This document shows positions 32,607-36,690 of a stretch of 64,000 nt of DNA, in pieces. Where the stretch lies: positions 50,340-114,339 of the forward strand of contig JAUVWL010000011.1 of NCBI GenBank assembly GCA_030604135.1, read 5' to 3'. The position numbers and the translations under genes were made by a program. How positions within the stretch are numbered: position 1 is the first letter of the stretch; each line of letters begins with the position of its first letter. The stretch comes from Burkholderiales bacterium (GTDB lineage Bacteria; Pseudomonadota; Gammaproteobacteria; Burkholderiales; Burkholderiaceae_C). The notes beneath the pieces were generated by a model. That model worked only from the letters and a program-made list of their open reading frames with translations, was not told where the DNA came from and searched no databases.

Positions 32607-34238
32607 ATGCAGGGCACGGTCGAGCGGCTGTCCGATGGCAGCGAGGTATTCCGGGCCAGCTGGCGCGGCGGTACCACGCTGCTGGCCGCCTTCATCCTGA
32701 TGCTGGGCTTGCTGATGGCCTGGTGGGCGCTGGCCGACGAGGAAGCACCGCTGGCGCTCTGGGGTTTTGCGGTCTTCTTTGGCGGTGTGGGCCTGGTGCT
32801 GTTCAAGCCCGTGCTCAGTCGCCTGCCGGTGGTGCAGGTTGGTCCCCAGGGCGTGAGTGGGCAGCTGCTGCGTGGCCACACCGTGCCCTGGTCGGACATC
32901 ACCGATGTGGGGTTTCAGGTGGTGCAGGGCCGGGAGGTGATCACGCTCACGCTGCGCGCTGGTTCGCCGCTGCTGGCGCCGACCAAACCCCTGATCGGTG
33001 GCGGGCTTGTGCGGGGCCTGAGCCTGGACCCCTTGCGCCGGGACGACCGTGCGCTGGCCACGTTGGCGGTGATGCAGGCCTTTCGCCGCCATGCCGGCGC
33101 CCAGGCGCAGCGGGCCGAGCGGGCGGCCTGGCAGGAGACGCTGGACCACGAGGCCTTCGATCAGCGTTTGCGCGAAACCACCCCCAGCCTCTGGGCCCTG
33201 TATGCCGTGATGGCCTTGAACGTGGGTGTCTGGATGGCCAACCTGGCCGATGGCCTGGACCCCATGCAGCCGGCCACGGCCGACCTGTTCCGCTGGGGTG
33301 CCAGCTCCGCCACGGCGGTGGTGCGCGACGGCGAGCTCTGGCGCCTGCTGACCGCCACCGTGCTGCACGGTGGCTTGCTGCACCTGGCACTCAACATGTA
33401 CGCCCTGTGGATCGGGGGAACGCAGGTTGCGCGCTGGTTCGGCAACGGCCAGTTCCTGCTGATCTACTGGGGTTCGGCCCTGGCGGGGGCGTCGCTGAGC
33501 CTGCACTTCTCGGCCCAGCAGGCGGTGTCGGTGGGTGCGTCGGGCGCGGTGTTCGGCGTGCTCGGGGCCTTGCTGGCCGGTGTGCTGCAGCAGCGCGAAC
33601 GGGTTCCGAAAGCGGTGGTCATACAGCTGCTGACCTCGCAGGGCCTGTTCGTGATGTTTTCATTGGGCCAGGGTTTCACGCGCGATGGCATCGACAACGC
33701 GGCCCATGTGGGCGGTCTGCTGGCGGGCGCCGCCATGGGCTGGTTGCTGGTGGAGCTGGTCGACCTGCAGGCCGCGCCCGGGGCGCGCCGGCGCGGCCAG
33801 GGCATGGCGGTGGCTGCGGTGGGACTGGCCGTGGCCGGGCTGGTCTGGGCGGCGCAGCCCGGGGTGGACCACCGGCAGCTGTTTGCCGAGCAGGGGGCGC
33901 TGCGGCAGGTGCTGCCGGCCTACCAGTCGGCCGAACAGGCCTTGCTGGCGGACATCCGCTCCCATCAGGCCGGCAACATGACGCGCGCGCAACTGGTGGA
34001 CGCGCTGCAGCGCGTCCACATGCCGGCCTACCAGGACGTGGGCGAGCGCCTGGCGCGGGCCAGCGACACGGTGTCGTCGGACCGCCTGAGCCACCTGTTG
34101 GTGTTGCAGTCGGGCTGGCTGGAGATCATGGCGATGGAGGTCAACGGTCTGACCGACACGGGTCGGGGCGAGGCCCGGGCCGGCGAGCTGCTGCAGGCCA
34201 TGCAGCTGGCCCGGGAGCGGCTTCAGGCTCGCCCCTGA
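32607..34238 (+). CDS. Rhomboid family intramembrane serine protease
   Basis: VGASGAVFGVLGALLAG (GxSG) and NAAHVGGLLAG His motif; LLHLALNMYALW. Confidence 0.88.
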   Translation: MQGTVERLSDGSEVFRASWRGGTTLLAAFILMLGLLMAWWALADEEAPLALWGFAVFFGGVGLVLFKPVLSRLPVVQVGPQGVSGQLLRGHTVPWSDITDVGFQVVQGREVITLTLRAGSPLLAPTKPLIGGGLVRGLSLDPLRRDDRALATLAVMQAFRRHAGAQAQRAERAAWQETLDHEAFDQRLRETTPSLWALYAVMALNVGVWMANLADGLDPMQPATADLFRWGASSATAVVRDGELWRLLTATVLHGGLLHLALNMYALWIGGTQVARWFGNGQFLLIYWGSALAGASLSLHFSAQQAVSVGASGAVFGVLGALLAGVLQQRERVPKAVVIQLLTSQGLFVMFSLGQGFTRDGIDNAAHVGGLLAGAAMGWLLVELVDLQAAPGARRRGQGMAVAAVGLAVAGLVWAAQPGVDHRQLFAEQGALRQVLPAYQSAEQALLADIRSHQAGNMTRAQLVDALQRVHMPAYQDVGERLARASDTVSSDRLSHLLVLQSGWLEIMAMEVNGLTDTGRGEARAGELLQAMQLARERLQARP

Positions 34239-35956
34239 ACCCGAGACGCGCGCAGCGTGCCGCCGACGATCAGGCACTGCGCCGCGTAGTAGGTGGACAG
34301 CACCCAGACGGCCGACGCCGGCAGGGGGCTGACAAAACGGTTGAGGGCCAGCAGGGTGTCGCTGATCACAAAGGCGACCGCGCCCGCCGCCACCAGCACC
34401 GAGGCCAGGTCGCGCTGCAGCCAGGCGCGGCCGATGGCCTGGGCGGCCATGAGCGAGATCACCAGCGCGTACACCGCCACCGGCCCGTGCAGGCCCGCCG
34501 GCAGGCCACCGACCCAGAGCACGGCCACCATCAGCACGGCGTAGGCCAGGCAACCAACCAGCACGGGGCGCACCGGCCACCAGCGCGTGCCCTGACGAAA
34601 CAGCATGATGTAGGCCAGGTGCGCCAGCAGGAAGGCCACCAGGCCAGGGATGAAAAGACCCTCGAGCATCAGGAACACGTCACCCGCGAGCGAGGCGGCC
34701 AGGGCCAGACCCAGCCAGCGCGCCACTGTACCCGGCAGGCGACCCGAGCGCCGGACCTGCACCACCAGCAGCAGGGCCAGCACCATCGCCGCGGGCTTGA
34801 AAAACAGATGGGCTTCGCGCCAGCCGTCGGCCGCGGTCGCCATGGACAGGGCACCTGCTTCGATGACCAGGGCTTCCAGCGGCAGCAGGCGTCCTTGCAT
34901 GACGGCACCCACCGCCCACAGGCCGACCATCAGCACACCGAACCAGAGGGCGCTGCGCGACAGCGGCCAGGCTTCGGCTTGCCACAGGAACAGCGCCACG
35001 CCACCGAGCAGAATCAGGAACTGCAGGGCGGAAAAAGCCTGCAGGCCTGGTCCCATGGGGGTTTCAAAGCGCTGCAGGCGCACGGGGTCAAAGGCCGGCG
35101 CGGGTTCTGTTGCCGCCAGATCGGTGGGTCGCCAGCCGGGGGGCTTGAGCCAGACCCGCAGTTTGTCGCCCCAGGCCCGGGTGCGCCAGCTGTCCCGGGC
35201 CAGGGCTGCATACACCTCCAGGTTGGCCCACAGCGGGTCCCAGCTGCGCAGCGGTTTGCGCGTGCCGTAGACGCAGGGGTTGGCCGGGTCCTCGTCCTTG
35301 AAACTGCCGAACAGCCGGTCCCACACAATCAGGATGCCGCCGTAGTTCTTGTCCAGGTAGTCGTCGTTGACGGCGTGGTGCACGCGGTGGTTCGAGGGAG
35401 AGGCAAACACCCGGTCGAACCAGCCCAGGCGGCCGATCTGCTGCGTGTGGATCCAGTACTGGTAGAGCAGGTCGACCAGCGCCACGATGGCAAACAGCAG
35501 CGGCGGCACGCCGGCCACCGCCATCGGGACATAGAAAATCCAGCCGAGCAGGGCGCCGCTGCTGGTCTGACGCAGAGCGGTCGACAGGTTGTAGTCCTCG
35601 CTCTGGTGGTGCACCACATGGGCGGCCCAGAACACCGCGCTCTCATGCCCCAGGCGGTGGTGCCAGTAGTAGCAGAAGTCGTAGAACAGCAGCGCCAGCA
35701 GCCAGCCGGCCCAGTGGTCCCACAGGGCCGCGTCGGGGAAGACGGCGAACACGCCGTACACGGCGGTGTAGATGCCCACCCGCAGCAGCCGCGTGAAGAC
35801 GGCGCTGATCTGGCTGAGCATGCCCAGGCCGATGCTGGTGACCGCATCGGCCAGGCGGTAGGTGTTGCGGCCGCGTGCGCGTCCGATGGCGAACTCCAGT
35901 CCGATGAGCAGCAGGAAGACCGGGGTCGCCAGCACGATGATCTGGCTGGATGTCAT
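34223..35956 (-). CDS. Fusion: N-terminal sterol desaturase/fatty acid hydroxylase (AGMO-like) domain plus C-terminal YhhN/TMEM86 lysoplasmalogenase-like domain
   Basis: His-box motifs YYWHHRLGHE, HVVHHQSEDYN, HRVHHAVNDDYLDKN; C-terminal polytopic region LAGDVFLMLEGLFIPGLVAFLLAHLAYIMLF and FVISDTLLALNRF. Confidence 0.85.
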   Translation of the reverse strand: MTSSQIIVLATPVFLLLIGLEFAIGRARGRNTYRLADAVTSIGLGMLSQISAVFTRLLRVGIYTAVYGVFAVFPDAALWDHWAGWLLALLFYDFCYYWHHRLGHESAVFWAAHVVHHQSEDYNLSTALRQTSSGALLGWIFYVPMAVAGVPPLLFAIVALVDLLYQYWIHTQQIGRLGWFDRVFASPSNHRVHHAVNDDYLDKNYGGILIVWDRLFGSFKDEDPANPCVYGTRKPLRSWDPLWANLEVYAALARDSWRTRAWGDKLRVWLKPPGWRPTDLAATEPAPAFDPVRLQRFETPMGPGLQAFSALQFLILLGGVALFLWQAEAWPLSRSALWFGVLMVGLWAVGAVMQGRLLPLEALVIEAGALSMATAADGWREAHLFFKPAAMVLALLLVVQVRRSGRLPGTVARWLGLALAASLAGDVFLMLEGLFIPGLVAFLLAHLAYIMLFRQGTRWWPVRPVLVGCLAYAVLMVAVLWVGGLPAGLHGPVAVYALVISLMAAQAIGRAWLQRDLASVLVAAGAVAFVISDTLLALNRFVSPLPASAVWVLSTYYAAQCLIVGGTLRASRVQGRA

Positions 35957-36039
35957 GGCGGTCTATTCTGGTACGGGTCAGTACCCATGCGCCACCGCAA
36001 GAACCCTTATGCGGGCATGACCGATTTCCTCTCAGCCTC

Positions 36040-36690
36040 TCAAGCGCTGCGCTCGTCCAGGGTCTGGCCCTCTTCGTGCGTCTGCAGGTGGCCAGTGTCG
36101 GCCCAGCCCACCAGGCTCAGGCCCTCCGGCGACCAGAGCAGGCGGTTGATGGCCGTGTTGGGCAGCTCCCAGCTGCGGGGGGCCTGCAGTTCCAGCCGGG
36201 TGGCCGCGCGGTACAGGATGTCCAGCACGCCGCCATGGGCCACCAGCAGCACCTGCTCGCCGGGGTGGCGGGCGGCCAGCTGCTCGACGGTGCCGACCAC
36301 CCGCTCGCGCAGCTGCAGCAGGGTCTCGCCGCCGGGCGGGGCGAAGTCGGGCACCCGTTTGCGCCAGGCCAGCGCCTCTTCGGGGTGGCGCGACTCCAGC
36401 TCGGCCCAGGTCTGCCCTTCGAAGTGACCGAAGCTGCGTTCACGCAGGCCGGTGTGTATCTGCACACGGGCCCCATGGCGGCGCGCCACCGCTTCGGCGG
36501 TTTCGCGGGCGCGGCTGAGATCGCTGGCGTAGAAGGCCGCGATCGGTTCCTCCACGAGTGCATGCGCCAGTTGGTTTGCCTGCCAGCGGCCGTGGTCGTT
36601 CAGCTCGATGTCGGTGTGGCCCTGGATGCGGGTGTCACGGTTCCAGGCGGTTTCGCCGTGTCGCACGGCCAGGATGCGGGTGACTTGCAA
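36040..36690 (-). CDS. Histidine phosphatase family protein (phosphoglycerate mutase-like)
   Basis: ILAVRHGETAWNRDTRIQGHTDIELND; VAHGGVLDILYR. Confidence 0.92.
   Translation of the reverse strand: MQVTRILAVRHGETAWNRDTRIQGHTDIELNDHGRWQANQLAHALVEEPIAAFYASDLSRARETAEAVARRHGARVQIHTGLRERSFGHFEGQTWAELESRHPEEALAWRKRVPDFAPPGGETLLQLRERVVGTVEQLAARHPGEQVLLVAHGGVLDILYRAATRLELQAPRSWELPNTAINRLLWSPEGLSLVGWADTGHLQTHEEGQTLDERSA

Follow-up and report, generated by a model that had tools for sequence, protein, structure and literature searches.

Lipids have ether bonds of two kinds, which animals break with alkylglycerol monooxygenase (AGMO) and with lysoplasmalogenase, enzyme types carried on separate genes. 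At the locus described here both types appear to be joined in one reading frame, and the question is whether this union is real, whether each half could still work and what the whole would do. The window, that is, the whole stretch of 64,000 nucleotides analysed, belongs to a common environmental bacterium whose genome groups with Hydrogenophaga (Burkholderiales), judged by its nearest named relatives. The first-pass annotation had placed a 577-aa open reading frame at 34223-35956, and these coordinates hold: the coding strand is minus, with an ATG at 35956 and a stop ending at 34223, and the plus-strand frame across the same positions is meaningless. Domain searching of the protein recovered exactly the two proposed domains and no others, FA_hydroxylase (PF04116) at residues 85-218 (E 1.5e-29, 103.5 bits, curated cut-off 31) and YhhN (PF07947) at residues 383-566 (E 8.6e-44, 149.8 bits, curated cut-off 25.6), both far above their cut-offs. 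The features are collected in Table 1.

Table 1. Features of the fusion gene and its upstream neighbour, with positions in the window and the basis of each assignment.
Feature	Position	Strand	Basis or remark
AGMO-YhhN fusion gene	34223..35956	-	577 aa; Pfam and relatives
AGMO-like part, residues 1-357	34886..35956	-	Extent matched by AGMO-only proteins
FA_hydroxylase (PF04116), residues 85-218	35303..35704	-	Pfam
His boxes 1 and 2: H100, H104, H113, H116, H117 (human AGMO H132, H136, H145, H148, H149)	35606..35659	-	Alignment and PMC7911779
Q130 (human AGMO Q162)	35567..35569	-	Alignment and PMC7911779
H170, ninth essential histidine (human AGMO H201)	35447..35449	-	Alignment and PMC7911779
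His box 3: H190, H193, H194, with D202, N204, Y205, W212, D213 (human AGMO H221, H224, H225, D233, N235, Y236, W243, D244)	35318..35389	-	Alignment and PMC7911779
Junction helix, residues 359-377	34826..34882	-	Last helix of short AGMO-only proteins, at the TM1 position of stand-alone YhhN
YhhN (lysoplasmalogenase-like) part, residues 380-571	34244..34819	-	Pfam and profile comparison
K387 (TMEM86A K43)	34796..34798	-	Alignment and PMC11994398
G425, D426 (TMEM86A G81, D82)	34679..34684	-	Alignment and PMC11994398
H446 (TMEM86A H104)	34619..34621	-	Alignment and PMC11994398
G525, S532, D533 (TMEM86A G182, S189, D190)	34358..34384	-	Alignment and PMC11994398
Y556 (TMEM86A Y213)	34289..34291	-	Alignment and PMC11994398
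Histidine phosphatase gene	36040..36690	-	Upstream, same strand, 83 nt gap; ordinary neighbour

The identity of the hydroxylase half was analyzed residue by residue. The three motifs pointed out previously, HHRLGH (H99-H104), HVVHH (113-117) and HRVHH (190-194), are present as described. For human AGMO, nine histidines and six further residues are listed as essential in a review (PMC7911779), and the fusion protein has all 15, namely the nine histidines together with Q130, D202, N204, Y205, W212 and D213. The offset to the human numbering is 32 for the first six of these residues and 31 for the remainder, reflecting a one-residue difference in length between the two groups. The 15-residue spacing pattern is passed by 73 of the 76 distinct fused proteins and by two additional AGMO-clade loci. 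Among distinct unfused matches 40 of 53 pass, the failures belonging mostly to more distant groups. All 16 control proteins from other FA_hydroxylase groups fail, including a paralog from the window genome itself (L216). The sole NCBIfam match was to OlsE, the ornithine lipid hydroxylase (NF052566), which shares the superfamily; this match is weak, scoring 59.9 bits where the cut-off is 475, and OlsE was rejected. As the full residue set is kept, the other FA_hydroxylase groups fail and OlsE lies far under its cut-off, the hydroxylase half is, judged by its sequence, of the AGMO type and no generic sterol desaturase. It resembles animal AGMO/TMEM195 (EC 1.14.16.5) in domain, in the spacing of the essential residues and in extra C-terminal transmembrane helices, a likeness drawn from sequence, and differs in being bacterial, in being fused to YhhN and in a pterin cofactor that is presumably not biopterin. 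Closer at hand are bacterial AGMO-only proteins (~370-430 aa) with ~45-67% identity over residues 1-357, most of which pass the pattern and which public records label “sterol desaturase family protein”. AGMO-like genes with the same annotation are also borne on plasmids of Delftia (NC_019312.1, 41693-42715) and Pseudomonas aeruginosa (NZ_CP115197.1, 215299-216324). A literature search found no assay of a bacterial AGMO.

The second half, described earlier as a YhhN-like polytopic region, is borne out both by its domain match and by its catalytic residues. Eight conserved residues of TMEM86A/B have been probed by mutagenesis, the majority proving necessary for activity (PMC11994398), and the fusion protein keeps all eight proposed catalytic residues, as in the lysoplasmalogenases TMEM86A/B and YhhN of Legionella and Mycobacterium. 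Across 35 diverse fusions six of them (K387, G425, D426, S532, D533, Y556) do not vary, and H446 and G525 are almost invariant. Loss of active-site residues, which would have spoken against two working domains, was thus found in neither half, the sets for AGMO (15) and TMEM86A/B (8) both being complete.

The membrane anatomy clarifies how the halves meet. An AlphaFold model built with 35 sequences has a mean pLDDT of 82.5 and a pTM of 0.79; the YhhN half lies mostly above 90, and confidence is lowest at residues 120-134 within the AGMO part. Two C-terminal transmembrane helices of the AGMO part (303-329 and 332-353) are common to AGMO-only proteins, the profile of which covers residues 5-393 with a good match up to ~354. 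Two unfused AGMO proteins from other Burkholderiales families (L188 and L191) terminate at the helix equivalent to 359-377, and the profile of stand-alone YhhN begins at residue 356, so that the two known proteins overlap there. In stand-alone YhhN, TM1 comes before the lysine helix, and YhhN of Mycobacterium is inactive when TM1 is missing (PMC9052158). We infer that the last AGMO helix replaces TM1 of YhhN, which would distinguish this half from a free-standing lysoplasmalogenase. The YhhN half has seven helices of its own from residue 380 on, plus helix 359-377, which it has in common with the AGMO part, for a family with eight transmembrane helices and both termini inside; loop charges are compatible with both termini being inside. 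Loop charges place region 166-304, the loops 399-412, 452-465 and 507-520 and the C-terminus in the cytosol. Taken with the model, they hint that the AGMO site may face the cytosol and the YhhN site may lie nearer the periplasmic face, the latter matching the side of entry that has been suggested for YhhN of Mycobacterium (PMC9052158). Active sites seemingly directed toward opposite membrane faces argue against substrate channelling. Sequence searches of the PDB, single and profile, returned no relative of the fusion protein, and a Foldseek search of the model against the PDB gave nothing significant. The weak GPCR- or rhodopsin-like matches that it returned are no proof of a fold, and are consistent with a proposal that YhhN has a GPCR-like fold.

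The protein is predicted, with a probability of roughly 0.7, to be a bifunctional inner-membrane enzyme cleaving sn-1 ether bonds of either kind in lysolipids. The AGMO-type di-iron half would hydroxylate 1-O-alkyl glycerols or lyso-alkyl phospholipids at the carbon beside the ether oxygen, with the help of O2 and, presumably, a reduced pterin, and the resulting hemiacetal would collapse, releasing a fatty aldehyde and the glycerol moiety. The YhhN/TMEM86-type half would split the vinyl ether bond in lysoplasmalogens by hydrolysis, giving a fatty aldehyde and the glycerophospho head, a reaction demonstrated in the literature for relatives (PMC11994398, PMC9052158). Since both routes would yield one product class, fatty aldehyde, it is proposed that the pair scavenges ether (lyso)lipids or detoxifies them, the lipids being most likely of eukaryotic or other microbial origin. 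A gene for pterin-4a-carbinolamine dehydratase, found in 12 of 12 genomes, allows for pterin use by the AGMO half through recycling.

Regarding the origin of the substrate, CarF/PEDS1, the aerobic vinyl-ether desaturase that makes plasmalogens, was found in none of 40 host-genus genomes. The identical search was positive in 4 of 299 genomes of a phylum sample, and it is therefore capable of detection. The caveat attached to the original proposal, that such bacteria are not known for abundant plasmalogens, is upheld by these counts. PF09989, which represents one PlsA domain only, is absent from the window genome, and a literature search on Hydrogenophaga ether lipids gave nothing relevant. Since the search in the host genus turned up no copy of this known aerobic desaturase, the ether-lysolipid substrate is probably exogenous. 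For Mycobacterium YhhN, external ether lysolipids have likewise been argued, as food or for protection, and YhhN-bearing bacteria are often unable to make plasmalogens (PMC9052158). The same absence of a desaturase, the same inability of YhhN-bearing bacteria and the OlsE match, sole but far below its cut-off, could be read another way, namely that the hydroxylase half acts on some other endogenous lipid such as ornithine lipid, with YhhN acting on the lipid so formed or on a different lysolipid, so that the envelope of the host is remodelled. This is considered unlikely, given that every AGMO-essential residue lying outside the general histidine boxes is kept, that other FA_hydroxylase groups, the same-genome paralog among them, are without the full set, and that an ether-lipid enzyme predicts a tie to the lysoplasmalogenase family, as seen here. 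More doubtful still is an extension of the dual ether-cleaving reading, in which the halves would form one catalytic unit. Because both chemistries would share an sn-1 hemiacetal, the YhhN half might speed the collapse of the AGMO hemiacetal, in a bacterial ether-lipid salvage pathway so far undescribed, feeding on ether lipids from algae, protists or anaerobes of the habitat.

Purifying selection acts on both halves, with dN/dS values of 0.05-0.12 for the AGMO part and 0.18-0.24 for the YhhN part in comparisons with the four closest relatives. The faster evolution of the YhhN half, and its loss in a few members, would suit an arrangement in which one half alone is active and the other is a membrane scaffold or decaying; values well below 1 in both halves and catalytic residues complete in nearly all of 70-90 relatives make this very improbable. 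The window comes from a 51-contig draft, and the suspicion of an assembly or annotation artefact is refuted by relatives in which the same frame runs free of stops, in 66 genomes of the family, several of them single-contig assemblies, and in the complete chromosome of Polaromonas sp. P2-4, where the match starts at residue 18. The fusion is genuine, natural and widespread. The survey of its distribution, with full length defined as one match that begins no later than residue 4 and extends at least to residue 564, counted these 66 of 400 GTDB-family genomes, in 31 genera, among the matches listed, and a sample of 36 host-genus genomes included 19 with a full-length relative. Host-genus genomes without the fusion can carry a different stand-alone YhhN (L175, L176, L177). 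No fusion was found outside the GTDB family in genome samples of the class and order; other members of the phylum have long open frames with YhhN, which were considered as extra fusions and rejected, being without an AGMO domain. The literature search retrieved no paper combining YhhN with a fatty acid hydroxylase and none describing the fusion.

The unfused counterparts provide a further link between the two families. Adjoining separate genes, AGMO then YhhN on the same strand, are present in four MAGs (L044, L046-L048), with overlapping ends in L044 and ~10 bases between them in L048. In another family (G1212) the same order occurs with an ATGA overlap, and in G048 and G1257 the order is reversed on the same strand. 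Overall, adjacency is seen in four other lineages, in both orders, with an ATGA overlap twice, and since the gene order differs, such adjacencies probably arose more than once. The YhhN-then-AGMO pairs noted in two other Burkholderiales families (L138, 7188-9075; L226, 3560-5494) have gaps of ~1 and 36 bases. Overlapping or tightly spaced separate genes (L044, 5998-7985; L048, 5998-7999; L227, 3625-5792) likely represent a forerunner state of the fusion. In the family, an AGMO-only genome usually has a YhhN gene at another place: an unlinked YhhN accompanies unfused AGMO in 42 of 48 genomes, compared with 2 of 24 that have no strong AGMO match (Fisher p 4.5e-11). By genus the counts are 19/23 and 2/20 (p 2e-6), the adjustment for shared descent extending to genus level only, and the genomes lacking AGMO being those listed in the family search together with others of the host genus. 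YhhN without AGMO is common in bacteria outside the family, the E. coli control matching for YhhN, and six AGMO-only family genomes have no YhhN, so that neither strictly requires the other. With active-site residues complete, genes adjacent elsewhere and unlinked genes co-occurring, the Rosetta-stone argument by which the fusion was first taken to suggest one ether-lipid enzyme gains support at the level of predicted activity.

On an AGMO tree with 72 fused rows the fused state is clustered, with 4 changes as against 40 in shuffles, and the four-MAG operon group branches beside the fused clade. One old gain suffices for this tree, together with a small number of losses or replacements (in L140, in L043 and in the L023/L150/L154 group), though weakly supported forks would also suit other histories. 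L140 and L043 are members of the fused clade without a YhhN half; in L140 (6923-8128) this half is gone and no YhhN was found elsewhere in the genome, a natural loss. The source of the fused YhhN domain did not resolve on the YhhN tree.

The surroundings of the gene are unremarkable. The upstream histidine phosphatase gene is outside the AGMO-YhhN system, and a convergent rhomboid gene (32607-34238) overlaps the fusion gene by 16 bases. Further neighbours are PhoH, RuvA, RuvB, a hybrid sensor kinase, a DUF4136 protein and a PP-loop protein. No conserved lipid gene was found near the fused gene; neighbours vary among relatives, and none at the window locus suggests lipids. In several relatives a D-threonine-aldolase/D-serine-dehydratase-like gene lies directly upstream on the same strand (L162, 9669-10835). 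A 1234-aa open frame (32723-36427, plus strand) runs antisense to the fusion gene and spans the rhomboid gene; it is probably no gene, the high GC content being the most likely reason for its presence.

Through fusion, neighbourhood and co-occurrence, two enzyme families that occur together in the ether-lipid breakdown of animals are now tied to each other in bacteria. The purification of AGMO from animals has proved irreproducible (PMC7911779), and the fusion offers a predicted bacterial AGMO. A concrete, testable role is thereby provided for some bacterial “sterol desaturase family proteins”, and equally for YhhN in bacteria that make no plasmalogens, a question raised previously (PMC9052158). 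As for the host bacteria, our results suggest that they dismantle ether lipids, though apparently unable to make plasmalogens.
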